Below, piece by piece: positions 16,037 through 28,084 of a stretch of DNA of 64,000 nucleotides. The stretch is taken from positions 1,426,001 through 1,490,000 of the forward strand of contig CP004371.1 in NCBI GenBank assembly GCA_000597885.1, given 5' to 3'. Position numbers and translations under genes: made by a program. This DNA is from Flammeovirgaceae bacterium 311. GTDB lineage: Bacteria; Bacteroidota; Bacteroidia; Cytophagales; Cyclobacteriaceae. The notes under the pieces are model-generated. The model saw only the letters and a program-made list of their open reading frames with translations. It was not told the DNA's origin and did not search any database. Within the stretch, counting starts at the first letter, position 1; each line of letters begins with the position of its first letter.

Positions 16037-16798
16037 TTATTCACAAACAATTTGATTATTATATTTTAAACTCACCCGGTCATATGTATTCCAGCCCTTA
16101 GCAGGCAATATGTGGGTATAAAAAATCATCAACTTTCTAAATTTTTCTTCAATATCTTCTGCTTTCCCAAACTCCACCACTTGCCGTGTTACCTGCGGGT
16201 AAAGCCGTATGTCTCCACTCCGGTTAATACTAACCTCAGCAATCTGCGCCTTCCAGAATGGGTCCTGATCAATATACAGCAGCAACTCTAACAACTGTTG
16301 TCCGTACGGAGTCTCCTCCAGGTTATCGAGCCACAACTTGCGGGTGTAGTCTCCGCTAAGGAGCATTACCCGTGCCGTGTATTTTTCTGAAAGCGGAAGC
16401 ACCTGGCCGACATTACTTACATAAGCTCCCGGCCCGTCTTGCCGCAAGATTCGCGCTATAGGCTTGCTCTGGGTGATACTGACAAACAAGTTACCCTGAA
16501 AGTCTGTAGATACCTCAGTATTACTTACAAACTTATGATTCTTCAGGCGATTTTCAAGTATTTTTAAGCTTAAGTTTTCTACACTCGCTCCTACAATTTT
16601 TTCTTCGCCCCCATCTGTTAAAAGCTTTAATACATCTGCTTCGTCCAGAAAATAATTATTGATCTGGTTATCAATCTCAACCACAACTTTGCGCACCGTT
16701 CTGCCATCATTACGAAAGCTGATCCAGCCAATACTGGCTGAAATGAACAGCATGCTCAGTGCCCAGGGTAATGTACTTAAAAACCTTTGCTTATCCAT
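16037..16798 (-). CDS. ftsQ: Cell division protein FtsQ/DivIB
   Basis: 253 aa from ATG 16798. One N-terminal membrane helix (about 10-25) is followed by a periplasmic part with a POTRA-like region (VRKVVVEIDNQINNYFLDEADVLKLL) and a beta domain. In the divisome FtsQ bridges FtsL/FtsB to FtsK and FtsA. The chosen ATG overlaps the end of murC by 8 bp (ATGGATAA). An earlier in-frame start at 16858 would add 20 very basic residues, read entirely inside murC, and is less likely. Sequence conservation in this family is low, so the call rests on topology, length and the position between murC and ftsA. Confidence 0.88.
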   Translation of the reverse strand: MDKQRFLSTLPWALSMLFISASIGWISFRNDGRTVRKVVVEIDNQINNYFLDEADVLKLLTDGGEEKIVGASVENLSLKILENRLKNHKFVSNTEVSTDFQGNLFVSITQSKPIARILRQDGPGAYVSNVGQVLPLSEKYTARVMLLSGDYTRKLWLDNLEETPYGQQLLELLLYIDQDPFWKAQIAEVSINRSGDIRLYPQVTRQVVEFGKAEDIEEKFRKLMIFYTHILPAKGWNTYDRVSLKYNNQIVCE

Positions 16799-18203
16799 TC
16801 GCCTCTTCTTTCTCCTTTTGCTCCAACAGGTTTTTGATGCGCGGCACCAGGGTATCAATACTGCCTGCGCCCACCGTCAGAAGTACCTCATAATTACCTG
16901 CTTCAAGTAAAGCTATAACCTCCTGCAGCTTTACAACCTTCTTCTCTTTAGCAGTCAGTAAGTTATAGATCATGTAGGACTCCACTCCATCCAGAGGTTC
17001 TTCACGGGCAGGATATATGTTGGTAAGAATTACCTCGTCTGCCAGACTTAGTGCCTCTGCAAAGCCCGTGTGAAAATCGCGGGTACGGGTGTATAAATGC
17101 GGCTGAAAAACCACTGTTATTTTCTTGTCCGGGTACAGGGCTCTCACTGAGGTCAGGAAGGCCCGGATCTCTTCCGGATGATGTGCGTAATCATCGATTA
17201 AAACTGTTTCGGAACCCCGATAGATGACCTCAAACCTGCGCTTCACTCCTTTGAAGGAAGCAAGTGCATTTCTGATATTATCTGCTGAAATTCCCAGCTT
17301 TAAAGCAACAGAGCTGGCCGCTACTGCATTTTCCACATTGTGAAAACCTGGTATGCCCAGCTGCAGATCCGGGATCTCCTCTCCCAGCCCGATATAATCA
17401 AAATAAAATGCGCCATTCTCCACCCTTACGTTTTCTGCCCTGCATGCGGCAGCATCACTTAATCCGTAGGTAAGCACCTCCACCTCTTTTCCTGCTCCGT
17501 TGGCAATGGAAGCATGGCAGCCTGTGTTTATAAAAACAGTGCCACCTGCCTGTACCTTGCTTACAAACAAGCCAAAAGCCTCTACCACTTTAGCAGAATC
17601 TCCATAAATATCGAGGTGATCGGCATCGGTTGCCGTTACCACTGCCAGATCTGGCTCCAGCCACAGAAATGAACGGTCAAATTCGTCTGCCTCTGCCACC
17701 ACTACTGCTATTTCCGGCCCCTCATGCAGAATCAGGTTACTACCATAATTGGCAGCAATACCACCCAGAAATGCAGAGCAGGGTTTGCCCGAAGCTTTCA
17801 GCAGGTGTGCAATCATGGAAGAAGTGGTGGTTTTTCCATGCGTACCCGCCACTGCCGCCGTATAGCGGTTGTGGGTAAGCATGCCCAATACTTCTGCCCT
17901 TTTTTTTATGGTAAACTCCTCAAACTTCAGGTAATTCCAGCCCAGGTGAAATTTAGGAATTGCCGGTGTGTAGATCACCAGCGTTCGCTCCCGTTCGTCT
18001 TTCACCCATTTGGGAATGGCAGCCAGGCTGTCTTCAAAATGAATGGTAACGCCTTCGGCTTTCAGCTCATTTGTAAGTTCAGTTGGGGTACGGTCGTAAC
18101 CACCCACCCTGAAACCATTTTTACAAAACCAGCGGGCCAGGGCGCTCATACCGATGCCGCCAATGCCTAAGAAGTAGATATTATGGTAATCCTTTAGCCT
18201 CAC
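16791..18203 (-). CDS. murC: UDP-N-acetylmuramate--L-alanine ligase MurC
   Basis: 470 aa Mur ligase that adds L-alanine to UDP-MurNAc using ATP, the first amino-acid step of the peptidoglycan stem peptide. Seen: the Rossmann GIGGIGMSALA (13-23), the ATP P-loop GTHGKTTTS (120-128), the central ADEFDRSFL segment, and HHPEEIRAFL in the C-terminal domain. The start is GTG (18203) and overlaps the murG stop as GTGA. It overlaps ftsQ at its 3' end. Confidence 0.97.
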   Translation of the reverse strand: MRLKDYHNIYFLGIGGIGMSALARWFCKNGFRVGGYDRTPTELTNELKAEGVTIHFEDSLAAIPKWVKDERERTLVIYTPAIPKFHLGWNYLKFEEFTIKKRAEVLGMLTHNRYTAAVAGTHGKTTTSSMIAHLLKASGKPCSAFLGGIAANYGSNLILHEGPEIAVVVAEADEFDRSFLWLEPDLAVVTATDADHLDIYGDSAKVVEAFGLFVSKVQAGGTVFINTGCHASIANGAGKEVEVLTYGLSDAAACRAENVRVENGAFYFDYIGLGEEIPDLQLGIPGFHNVENAVAASSVALKLGISADNIRNALASFKGVKRRFEVIYRGSETVLIDDYAHHPEEIRAFLTSVRALYPDKKITVVFQPHLYTRTRDFHTGFAEALSLADEVILTNIYPAREEPLDGVESYMIYNLLTAKEKKVVKLQEVIALLEAGNYEVLLTVGAGSIDTLVPRIKNLLEQKEKEEANG

Positions 18204-19309
18204 GCAATTAAGGATATTATTTCGTTAGCAATATTTTCTGCCGCATTGGGTTTTCCAAGACGGGCTATTTGCCTGCTTAGCTCCTTTTTGCGGTCTTCAT
18301 CATGCAGCAGCGCCAGCGTTTCGCGCACCAGCTCTTCCTGAGCCTGGGCATCGCGTACCAAAACAGCTGCATTTGCCTTTACCAGGTTAAGGGCATTTTT
18401 AGTCTGATGATCTTCGGCCACATTAGGCGAAGGCACCAGCACAGCAGGCTTTGCTGCCAGGCATAATTCTGATATGCTTAAAGCACCGGCACGTGATACC
18501 ACCACATCGGCAGCGCCATATGCCAGGGGCATTTCCTTGATGAATGGCATTATCTTTAGCTGATCTCCCTGTAAATGTCTGGTGGCTTCGTTCAGTGCAT
18601 CATAATACACTTTACCCGTTTGCCACAAAACCTGAATCCGCTGCTCAAGCAGCTGGTCAATCCCCTTCAATATACTCTGATTTATGGTGCGGGCACCCAG
18701 ACTTCCGCCAATAATGAGGAGTGTTTTCAGATCTTCCCTGAAGCCAAAAAAGCTAAGCCCCTCCTGCCGCAACTGCTGTGCCTGCAGAATGTCTTTTCTA
18801 ACAGGGTTGCCGGTAAACACAAGCTTACTGGCAGGGAAATAGTTTTCCATTCCAGGGTAAGCCACGCAAATTTTCTTAACATATTTTGCCAGCAGCTTAT
18901 TGGTGAGACCTGCATAACCGTTTTGCTCCTGTAACACCGCAGGGATGCCCTGGCGGGTGGCAGCAAATACAAGGGGTCCGCTGGCATAACCGCCAACGCC
19001 AACTACTGCATCAGGTTTAAACTTCTTTACCAGCGCCGTACTCCTGGCAACACTGCTGAGCACCTTCAGGGGAAAAGCCAGGTTATCCAGGGTAAAGCGT
19101 CGCTGCAAACCACTGATCCAGAGGCCTTCAATTTTATACCCGGCTTCGGGTACTTTTTGCATTTCCATACGCCCTTTTGCACCTACAAACAGGATCTCTG
19201 TCTGAGGCTCAATGCGGCGCAGTGCATCTGCTATAGCTATGGCCGGATAGATGTGACCACCCGTACCACCGCCGCTAATAATTACCCGATATGGTTGTGA
19301 AGAGGAGAT
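18200..19309 (-). CDS. murG: MurG glycosyltransferase with no canonical start codon
   Basis: Adds GlcNAc from UDP-GlcNAc to lipid I, giving lipid II, at the inner face of the membrane. The frame is open from just after an in-frame TAG (19315-19313). Its first residues read A-I-SSSQPYRVIISGGGTGGHIYP, so the essential N-terminal G-loop (GGGTGGH) is encoded upstream of the first ATG (19168). Between the TAG and that ATG there is no ATG, GTG or TTG. I place the start at the ATC at 19309 (369 aa, normal length); this is inferred. Later motifs are normal: GVGGYASGPLVFAA, LQEQNGYAGLTNK, GNPVRKD, GGSLGARTIN, SRAGALSISEL. Starting at 19168 would delete the sugar/lipid-binding loop. A sequencing or assembly indel is the main alternative. 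Overlaps murC by 4 bp. Confidence 0.9.
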   Translation of the reverse strand: MSSSQPYRVIISGGGTGGHIYPAIAIADALRRIEPQTEILFVGAKGRMEMQKVPEAGYKIEGLWISGLQRRFTLDNLAFPLKVLSSVARSTALVKKFKPDAVVGVGGYASGPLVFAATRQGIPAVLQEQNGYAGLTNKLLAKYVKKICVAYPGMENYFPASKLVFTGNPVRKDILQAQQLRQEGLSFFGFREDLKTLLIIGGSLGARTINQSILKGIDQLLEQRIQVLWQTGKVYYDALNEATRHLQGDQLKIMPFIKEMPLAYGAADVVVSRAGALSISELCLAAKPAVLVPSPNVAEDHQTKNALNLVKANAAVLVRDAQAQEELVRETLALLHDEDRKKELSRQIARLGKPNAAENIANEIISLIA

Positions 19310-19378
19310 TGCCTAACAAAATTTAACTATCAATGTACAAGTATTAAATGGTATTTGATAAAGAAGAATGATATTAAT

Positions 19379-19387
19379 TTATCCACA
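19379..19387 (-). promoter_or_regulatory. DnaA-box 9-mer in the ftsW-murG gap
   Basis: The minus strand reads TGTGGATAA, a perfect complement of the DnaA box TTATCCACA, just past the ftsW stop and about 70 bp upstream of the proposed murG start. Binding is not shown by sequence alone. Confidence 0.35.
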
Positions 19388-19391
19388 TACC

Positions 19392-20546
19392 CTAGGCTGA
19401 CTTTACATAGTTGCCTACATCTTTAGGGGCTGTGGCAATATCTTCCACATCTCCCCTGCTCACACTTAAAATGATACCAAGGGCTAATCCATTGAACAGT
19501 AAGGAGGTACCCCCCATACTGATCATGGGCAGCGGCTGCCCTGTTACCGGTAAAATACCAACCGCAACACCCATGTTAACGAATGCCTGCAATACCAGCG
19601 CAAAGGCCAGCCCTGCAGACAGCAAACCCCCGAAGGCCCGTTCACTTTGGGAGACTGCCTTCATGCCCCGATACAGCAAGGCCATATAGAGGAAGATACA
19701 GAGGATGCCTCCGAACAATCCATACTCTTCTATGATGATCGCATAAATAAAGTCAGAGTACGGGTGCGGCAGCAGGTTGCGGCTGTCGCTGTTGCCAGGA
19801 CCCTTGCCGGCAATGCCGCCGGTGGCTATAGCAATATAAGACTGCTCTGTCTGGTAAGAGATTTCTCCGGGACTGGTATAGCTTTCAATACGGGCAAGTA
19901 AAGTACCCCCCCGCTGCCCAAAGGCAAATGCAAGACCGCCACCAATCGCACCGATCAGGATCAGCATAAACAGGTATTTGGCCGGTACCCTGCCAATGAA
20001 CATCAGGAGCAGACAGGTGGCAAACAGCAAACCAGCCGTAGAGAAGTTTGAGAGTGCAATTAGGCCGCAGATCAGGCCAATCCAGAACAAAACTGGGGTT
20101 AGCAGCTCTTTATCGGTGATGTTTTGCTGCCGCTTGCTCAGCATGGCCGCCAGGTTGGCAATCAGTGCCAGTTTGGCTAAGTCAGAGGGCTGAAAGGTTT
20201 TGTTGATGAGCGGTATTTCTATCCAGCGGCTGGCTTCGTTGATATTTGATCCGAAAAAGAAGGCATACAACAGCAGGGGCACCGATAAAATAAGAGCAAA
20301 GCGTGAAAGCCTGCTGTAATAGCGGTAATCTACCCGGTGAGCCACCCACATGGCACCAAGGCTTAGGAACATCAGCAGCGAGTGGTTGATCAGGTACTGT
20401 TCTACCTCTACATCGCGCTTAAAGGCAAGTGTGCCAGTTGCACTGTAAACCGCTGCTACACTAAGTAGCGACAGCATAAAAACAATGATCCAGATAACGG
20501 GATCACCTTTCAGGTTGTCCTGCATCCATAGTTTTACTTCATTCAT
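19392..20546 (-). CDS. ftsW: Lipid II polymerase FtsW (SEDS family)
   Basis: 384 aa with about ten membrane helices, SEDS family (FtsW/RodA/SpoVE). FtsW polymerises lipid II into septal glycan together with the FtsI transpeptidase. Visible are SRWIEIPLINKTFQPSDLAKLAL (the conserved helix-4 loop region, cited here only by its SRWIEI and QPSDLAK parts), PHPYSDFIYAIIIEEYG and GVAVGILPVTGQPLPMISMGGTS. Position between murD and murG identifies it as FtsW rather than RodA. It is 11 bp downstream of murD and is followed by a 79 bp gap before murG, one of the two longest inside the cluster. Confidence 0.96.
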   Translation of the reverse strand: MNEVKLWMQDNLKGDPVIWIIVFMLSLLSVAAVYSATGTLAFKRDVEVEQYLINHSLLMFLSLGAMWVAHRVDYRYYSRLSRFALILSVPLLLYAFFFGSNINEASRWIEIPLINKTFQPSDLAKLALIANLAAMLSKRQQNITDKELLTPVLFWIGLICGLIALSNFSTAGLLFATCLLLMFIGRVPAKYLFMLILIGAIGGGLAFAFGQRGGTLLARIESYTSPGEISYQTEQSYIAIATGGIAGKGPGNSDSRNLLPHPYSDFIYAIIIEEYGLFGGILCIFLYMALLYRGMKAVSQSERAFGGLLSAGLAFALVLQAFVNMGVAVGILPVTGQPLPMISMGGTSLLFNGLALGIILSVSRGDVEDIATAPKDVGNYVKSA

Positions 20547-27165: not shown

Positions 27166-27173
27166 ACCTCCTT
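27166..27173 (-). promoter_or_regulatory. Strong Shine-Dalgarno for ftsL
   Basis: Minus strand reads AAGGAGGT, 5 nt before the ATG of ftsL and overlapping the last bases of rsmH. Such a complete anti-SD match is unusual for Bacteroidota and fixes the ftsL start. Confidence 0.65.
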
Positions 27174-28077
27174 ATAATTTTTCTGCCACGCGCAAACGTG
27201 CACTTCTTGCTCTGTTATTTCTGACTATCTCCTCAGCAGAGGGCTCTACCGGCTTTCGGGTTACCGGCTCCAGCGGCCGTTGCATATTTCCATAGAAATC
27301 CTTTTCGGCTTCGCCCGAAAATTTACCCTTTGCCATAAAGTGCTTTACCAGCCTGTCTTCCAGCGAATGGTAGCTCATCACCACCAGCCTTCCTCCAGGC
27401 CTTAACACTTCTGCCGTCTGCTCCAGCATTTCTTCCAATGCCTGCAGCTCGTCATTTACCTCAATGCGCAGGGCCTGAAACACCTGAGCCTGGTATTTAA
27501 ATTCTTTGCCCCTGGGGGCATATTTGTTCAATACCTCCTTGAATTCACTTACTGTTCGAATAGGAGTATTGATGCGACTTGCCACAAGAGCTGCCGCAAG
27601 CGACTTTGCATTCTTTACCTCGCCGTACATGCCCAGTATTTTATGCAGCTCACGCTCCGGATATGTATTTACTATTTCACTGGCTGTCAGGCTGCTAGCC
27701 CTGTCCATCCGCATGTCCAGATCAGCTTCGAAACGGGTGGAAAATCCACGTGCCGGCTCGTCGAGCTGGTGGGAGGAAACTCCCAAATCTGCCAGGATGC
27801 CATCTACCGCCGTAACGCCAAAAAGCTTTAAGTATCGCTTTAGGTGCCTGAAATTGGTTTCTATAAACCTGAAGCGGGGATCTGTGATAGCAGCAGCCTG
27901 CTGGCGGGCATCATCGTCCTGATCGAAAGCAAACAACCGCCCCCCTTCTTCCAGCTGCTGAAGAATAGCTTTGCTATGGCCACCGCCACCAAAAGTAAGA
28001 TCTACGTAGGTACCGTTTGGCTGCAGCTGTAATCCTTCCAGCGTTTCCTGAAGCATTACCGGCTCGTGGTAGGACAT
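27172..28077 (-). CDS. rsmH: 16S rRNA (cytosine1402-N4)-methyltransferase RsmH
   Basis: 301 aa SAM-dependent enzyme that methylates N4 of C1402 in 16S rRNA (formerly MraW). Visible motifs: YHEPVMLQETLEGL at the start, DLTFGGGGHSKAIL (SAM site), FDQDDDA, ILADLGVSSHQLDEPARGFS, and MSYHSLEDRLVKHF near the C-terminus. The ATG at 28077 gives the usual MSYHEPVML start; a TTG two codons upstream is also possible. Second gene of the dcw cluster, 7 bp after mraZ. Confidence 0.96.
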   Translation of the reverse strand: MSYHEPVMLQETLEGLQLQPNGTYVDLTFGGGGHSKAILQQLEEGGRLFAFDQDDDARQQAAAITDPRFRFIETNFRHLKRYLKLFGVTAVDGILADLGVSSHQLDEPARGFSTRFEADLDMRMDRASSLTASEIVNTYPERELHKILGMYGEVKNAKSLAAALVASRINTPIRTVSEFKEVLNKYAPRGKEFKYQAQVFQALRIEVNDELQALEEMLEQTAEVLRPGGRLVVMSYHSLEDRLVKHFMAKGKFSGEAEKDFYGNMQRPLEPVTRKPVEPSAEEIVRNNRARSARLRVAEKL

Positions 28078-28084
28078 TGGCAAC

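Follow-up and report, generated by a model that had tools for sequence, protein, structure and literature searches.

In Flammeovirgaceae bacterium 311, translation of murG very likely begins at an AUC codon (19309-19307) on the minus strand of the window, the stretch of 64,000 nucleotides of contig CP004371.1 that was analysed here. This codon is in all likelihood one case of an AUH start (AUA, AUC or AUU; ATH in DNA) that is conserved within one family of the Cytophagales. By analogy, the murG start is probably weak and sensitive to IF3, of the same kind as those of infC and pcnB but without a Shine–Dalgarno (SD) sequence. AUH starts are a known kind of start; what appears to be new is their recurrence, without an SD sequence, across a family and on an essential lipid II enzyme. 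Our search of open-access papers found no AUH start of murG among them.

The murG frame and its missing canonical start

The murG frame is described by the following features of the window.

18200..19309, minus strand: murG coding sequence from the AUC, 369 codons plus stop, from its translation, TIGR01133 and the 1f0k alignment
19307..19309, minus strand: inferred murG start ATC (AUC), from the homologous column and the onset of coding constraint
19313..19315, minus strand: in-frame TAG directly 5′ of the murG start, from the sequence and its translation
19166..19168, minus strand: first canonical in-frame murG start, ATG, inside the conserved domain; the ORF is listed as 18200..19168

Read on the minus strand, the 5′ codons are TAG (19315-19313), GCA (19312-19310) and ATC (19309-19307), followed by TCC TCT TCA CAA CCA TAT CGG GTA ATT ATT AGC and then by the G-loop GGGTGGHIYP, which begins at 19273; the stop codon is at 18202-18200. 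Since the TAG is in frame, no in-frame murG start is possible further upstream, and between it and the ATG at 19168 the frame contains no ATG, GTG or TTG, in agreement with the initial annotation, which had reported that murG has none of these ahead of the G-loop. The ATG at 19168 lies 35 codons beyond the beginning of the loop (a distance first put at about 38) and is too late to be the start because the G-loop would be deleted from such a product; according to the alignment with 1f0k, the first strand would be lost together with the loop, and this candidate was rejected. Translated from the ATC at 19309, MurG has an intact G-loop and is otherwise normal. It matches TIGR01133 above the cut-off in a profile search (E = 1.9e-93) and aligns with E. 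coli MurG (1f0k) over query residues 3-365 (E = 1.3e-62). We take the product to be the UDP-GlcNAc:lipid I GlcNAc transferase. A gene caller that accepts only ATG, GTG and TTG would leave this murG about 47 codons short and without its substrate-binding loop.

The same codon in relatives

The genome, 6.67 Mb in one contig, adjoins Cesiribacter sp. SM1 and C. andamanensis, both of which share the ATC, located 12 codons before GGG. In Cesiribacter sp. SM1, whose MurG is 91% identical, the region reads TAA GCT ATC TCC TCT TCA CAA CCA TAT CGA. With codons numbered back from the G-loop, no canonical start is found up to and including codon −6 in 43 of 122 distinct murG loci, and all 43 have ATH at codon −12 (ATC in 25, ATA in 10 and ATT in 8). 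In the remaining loci, codon −12 is often canonical (TTG in 22, ATG in 9 and GTG in 3). The alignment of relatives that the initial annotation had proposed thus gives ATC, ATT or ATA at the homologous codon in some and TTG, ATG or GTG in others and, on this alignment, the AUC codon is homologous to the canonical murG start of relatives. Because ATH makes up 3 of the 61 sense codons, chance would hardly produce even six independent origins at codon −12 (a probability of about 1e-8, a rough figure).

When canonical starts were sought in the same loci for other genes, none could be found in 0 of 82 murD, 0 of 115 ftsW, 0 of 114 murC, 1 of 70 ftsQ and 0 of 65 ftsA, compared with 44 of 122 murG. 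The missing start is therefore a property of murG, and not of the assemblies or of the lineage. The one ftsQ that has no canonical start near its conserved N-terminus is at locus L049.

Coding constraint begins at the AUC codon

Compared with Cesiribacter sp. SM1, the 48 codons ahead of the first ATG differ at 1, 1 and 17 sites at codon positions 1, 2 and 3, respectively, and murG is the sole case of such a lead among 228 orthologous ORFs of the two genomes. A single assembly is by itself no proof against a sequencing or assembly indel that conceals a normal start, as had first been suggested as an alternative. However, the clean third-position divergence over this 48-codon lead, the shared ATC of Cesiribacter sp. 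SM1 and C. andamanensis, and the ATH at over 40 other loci from isolates and MAGs, i.e. in dozens of independent genomes, contradict it; we ruled out an assembly error, which is vanishingly improbable.

The onset of the constraint was located more precisely using 26 pairs of related AUH murG. Codons +7 to +12 differ by 0.083/0.013/0.327 at positions 1/2/3, and the 11 codons upstream of the AUH differ by 0.336/0.350/0.315, with no periodicity. The start codon itself is unchanged at positions 1 and 2 and changed at position 3 in 23% of the pairs, positions 1 and 2 being partly fixed by the way in which the group was selected, an effect of which the flanking codons are free. As judged from these substitution patterns, protein-coding constraint starts at the AUC codon.

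These values also bear on an internal start at one of the AUU codons of GTA-ATT-ATT (19279 or 19276), which would give an N-terminus such as M-I-S-GGG. The initial annotation had named the AUU codons of this VII segment as alternatives; there are two of them just ahead of the G-loop, and in some Belliella and Algoriphagus an ATG or TTG precedes the loop by 2-3 codons. They are nevertheless disfavoured because the codons that precede them (CCA/ACA TAT CGN or AGR) show the substitution pattern of coding sequence, being conserved as protein over +7 to +12. Moreover, where relatives have a canonical start, it is often found in the −12 column, and an internal start would remove most of strand β1, for which the alignment with E. 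coli MurG begins at query residue 3. We thus consider a start at an internal AUU to be very unlikely. For the AUC at 19309, already singled out as the best-placed start, the homologous column, the onset of coding constraint and the register of the A-element described below all agree.

Initiation context and neighbouring genes

The surroundings of the start comprise the following features.

19322..19324, minus strand: AAA at −15 to −13 of the murG AUC, counterpart of the conserved AAA at −14 to −12 in AUH murG
19392..20546, minus strand: ftsW, upstream of murG, with an ordinary ATG start, named from its sequence and cluster position
16791..18203, minus strand: murC, downstream of murG, whose GTG start overlaps the stop of murG (GTGA), from the sequence and the ORF listing
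19379..19387, minus strand: TGTGGATAA, DnaA-box-like, 78 nt before the murG AUC, a candidate murG regulatory site

The frequency of A at −14/−13/−12 in AUH murG loci is 0.93/0.91/0.91, and AAA occupies the position of the element in 35 of 46 AUH murG starts versus 15 of 115 canonical ones. It is supplied variously by ftsW codons, by the ftsW TAA or by the spacer, and is kept in each case. The initiation region of F. johnsoniae genes has a motif of adenines at −14 to −11, of which −12 and −13 are characteristic of well-translated genes (PMC6847099). In our alignments, the upstream A-element is registered on the AUH codon and matches the register of the F. johnsoniae motif. A phylogenetically independent-pairs test of AUH with AAA points in the same direction (about 3:0), with too few pairs for significance. 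An SD-like tetramer was found between −20 and −4 in only 1 of 40 AUH murG regions.

The distance from the ftsW stop to the AUH ranges from −1 to 92 nt, with all three frames represented (a value of 902 nt in L003 is an artefact of the search for the ftsW stop); it is at most 18 nt in 35 of 43 AUH loci and 82 nt in this genome. We may wonder whether MurG could be produced by readthrough or programmed frameshifting from the ftsW frame, or from a mini-ORF, so that it would need no start of its own. The end of ftsW is indeed close upstream in many relatives, and MurG can exist within a fusion, as in the MurG-MurC proteins of some of them. Yet the variable distance and frame speak against such a passage from ftsW, which was rejected, and neither constraint nor periodicity is seen upstream of the AUH. 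The mini-ORF present here (MIVKFC*) is absent from Cesiribacter sp. SM1 and C. andamanensis, and was likewise rejected as a conserved upstream element. Overall, this route to MurG is extremely unlikely.

The fusions themselves join murG and murC into a single open frame (841 to 909 aa, with one cut at 668) and occur at loci L336-L339, in relatives G030, G141, G168 and G180. Weak canonical starts are common in the cluster besides murG: rsmH is listed with TTG and murC with GTG.

As for the spacer, a perfect TGTGGATAA lies exactly 78 nt ahead of the murG AUH in three Cesiribacter species and Nafulsella (the window, L002, L003 and L004). It forms part of a TGTGGATAAAT block that is invariant among them, although the ftsW–murG spacer has diverged over much of its length. 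With 17 occurrences in the 1.6 Mb scanned, versus about 16 expected, the 9-mer shows no enrichment. It could be a site for DnaA or another regulator before murG.

AUH starts in the rest of the genome

A genome-wide control by raw alignment extension proved too noisy, and codon-position substitutions and codon-usage scoring were used instead. The codon-usage scan covered about 1,137 coding ORFs in 1.6 of the 6.67 Mb and revealed a coding lead ahead of the first canonical start in six ORFs: murG, infC, two genes broken by stops, one ambiguous case (1616.0 kb) and one at the edge of the scanned stretch. Within these 1.6 Mb, murG and infC are the only intact genes without a canonical start. The broken genes are a PQQ-type sugar dehydrogenase and a small PepSY-like gene, interrupted by in-frame stops at about 497550 and 546697 (L268 and L271).

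The infC gene of this genome (L232:1448, about 369.6 kb) reads AGGGAGGTAAAC ATC AGA AGA, with no canonical start. The classic case of infC, to which murG had been compared at the outset, is thus found in the same genome with the same ATC. Its AUH is accompanied by a strong AGGGAGG SD sequence, in a phylum that rarely uses SD sequences. AUH infC with GGAGG is common in relatives, and the infC open frame lacks a canonical start in 16 of 30 sampled loci. As infC is also started by ATC, AUH starts are very probably accepted by ribosomes in this lineage. The genome has an ordinary tRNA-Met (CAU) whose stem is of the initiator type (GGG-CTCATAA-CCC, the GGGCTCATAACCC stem), which makes a special tRNA unnecessary, and a gene for the IF3 N-domain was found in 59 of 59 genomes.

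Distribution and evolution of the AUH start

We sampled 37 genomes from 35 genera of the GTDB family of the window, and murG starts with AUH in 12 of them (10 genera), ATG in 13, TTG in 8 and GTG in 4. Carriers of AUH include Cesiribacter, Nafulsella, Xanthovirga, Agaribacillus, Splendidivirga, Roseivirga, Algoriphagus, Belliella, Rhodonellum and Echinicola pacifica. All of the murG loci read from 21 other families of the order have canonical starts, as do 28 loci elsewhere in the class. A MurG tree of 161 rows (46 with AUH), a quick tree with many weak branches, shows AUH in every sampled row of Algoriphagus (11/11) and Belliella (5/5). Parsimony on this tree requires 17 changes of AUH, compared with a mean of 40 after shuffling, and the well-supported (starred) branches force at least six. 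Third-base changes from H amount to 5.4 towards another H and 2.1 towards G, the latter being about the neutral share; these changes on the MurG tree do not support selection against AUG as such.

The AUC could be the true start and its weakness nonetheless be neutral, if little initiation were needed and coupling to ftsW relaxed the choice of codon, so that AUH drifts. The 17 parsimony changes, the nearly neutral share of H-to-G changes and the short distance to the ftsW stop in most AUH loci are consistent with such drift. However, AUH is kept throughout Algoriphagus and Belliella, murC is also closely coupled but is never AUH, and the AAA element is strong in AUH but not in canonical murG, which implies selection on initiation. 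This neutral account is possible but somewhat doubtful. Since the third-base changes do not show selection against AUG, low MurG output may be tolerated rather than selected; we lean slightly towards its being selected.

Comparison with known AUH starts

To our knowledge, very few bacterial genes have AUH starts, mainly infC and pcnB, whose AUH starts are inefficient and sensitive to IF3. Features of this class found in murG are the AUH at a homologous position, the lack of a usable canonical start and the onset of constraint; an SD sequence ahead of the start, as in infC and the S. aureus cases but not strictly defining for the class, is not found in murG. The AUU, AUC or AUA start of infC is, like that of murG, conserved over a clade. 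In contrast, infC encodes IF3 and, in E. coli, is subject to its own feedback, whereas murG encodes a cell-wall enzyme, and the strong AGGGAGG of infC in this genome has no SD-like equivalent in 39 of 40 AUH murG loci.

The AUU start of E. coli pcnB limits its translation (Binns and Masters 2002, as cited in PMC13009471). As far as that citation describes it, pcnB resembles murG in being a non-ribosomal chromosomal gene with a weak AUH start; it is a single proteobacterial gene, whereas murG lies in the dcw cluster and its AUH recurs across genera. The S. aureus genes ccpN (AUA) and cvfC1 (AUU) also have conserved AUH starts, and these AUA and AUU starts initiate at about 10% of AUG in reporters (PMC13009471). 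The lowering of initiation was thus seen there, but ccpN and cvfC1 rely on extended SD pairing, whereas none is visible in murG, where an A-rich element is found at −14 to −12. Finally, Streptomyces sigR has a GTC start that is repressed by IF3 and sets the stoichiometry of co-transcribed genes (PMC5472188). It differs from murG in its codon (GTC versus AUH), and repression by IF3 was shown for sigR and is proposed here for murG.

Proposed mechanism and meaning

The fMet-tRNA (CAU) would presumably read the murG AUC with a third-position mismatch. By analogy with infC and pcnB, initiation would be inefficient and discriminated against by IF3, a weakness for which the AAA element, together with the closely preceding ftsW stop in many relatives, may partly compensate, so that MurG would remain sufficient. 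In E. coli, IF3 inhibits re-initiation without an SD sequence (PMC2268962). The outcome would be a MurG output that is low relative to that of the ATG-started neighbours and sensitive to IF3 and to the conditions of initiation; it is plausible, on the same analogy, that the AUC start throttles MurG output.

Another gene of the cluster is of interest here.

27172..28083, minus strand: rsmH (mraW), in the same cluster, from the ORF listing and recognized by sequence and cluster position

We take rsmH, the second gene of the cluster, to encode the 16S rRNA C1402 N4-methyltransferase. In the ribosomal P site, the C1402 methylation is in contact with the start codon. The gene is present in most dcw clusters, irrespective of the start codon of murG. 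It is relevant to murG because the loss of rsmH raises AUU initiation in E. coli, according to work cited in PMC13317604. The dcw cluster might then hold its own initiation-fidelity circuit, in which RsmH activity or the level of IF3 would tune MurG, although we regard this as unlikely. If it were true, lipid II synthesis would be tuned via MurG, separately from the canonically started neighbours.

More generally, the rare start could link wall building to the translation machinery. The occurrence of AUC, AUU, AUA, UUG, GUG and AUG at one murG codon provides natural replicates within the family, suited to asking how AUH is read in bacteria without SD pairing.
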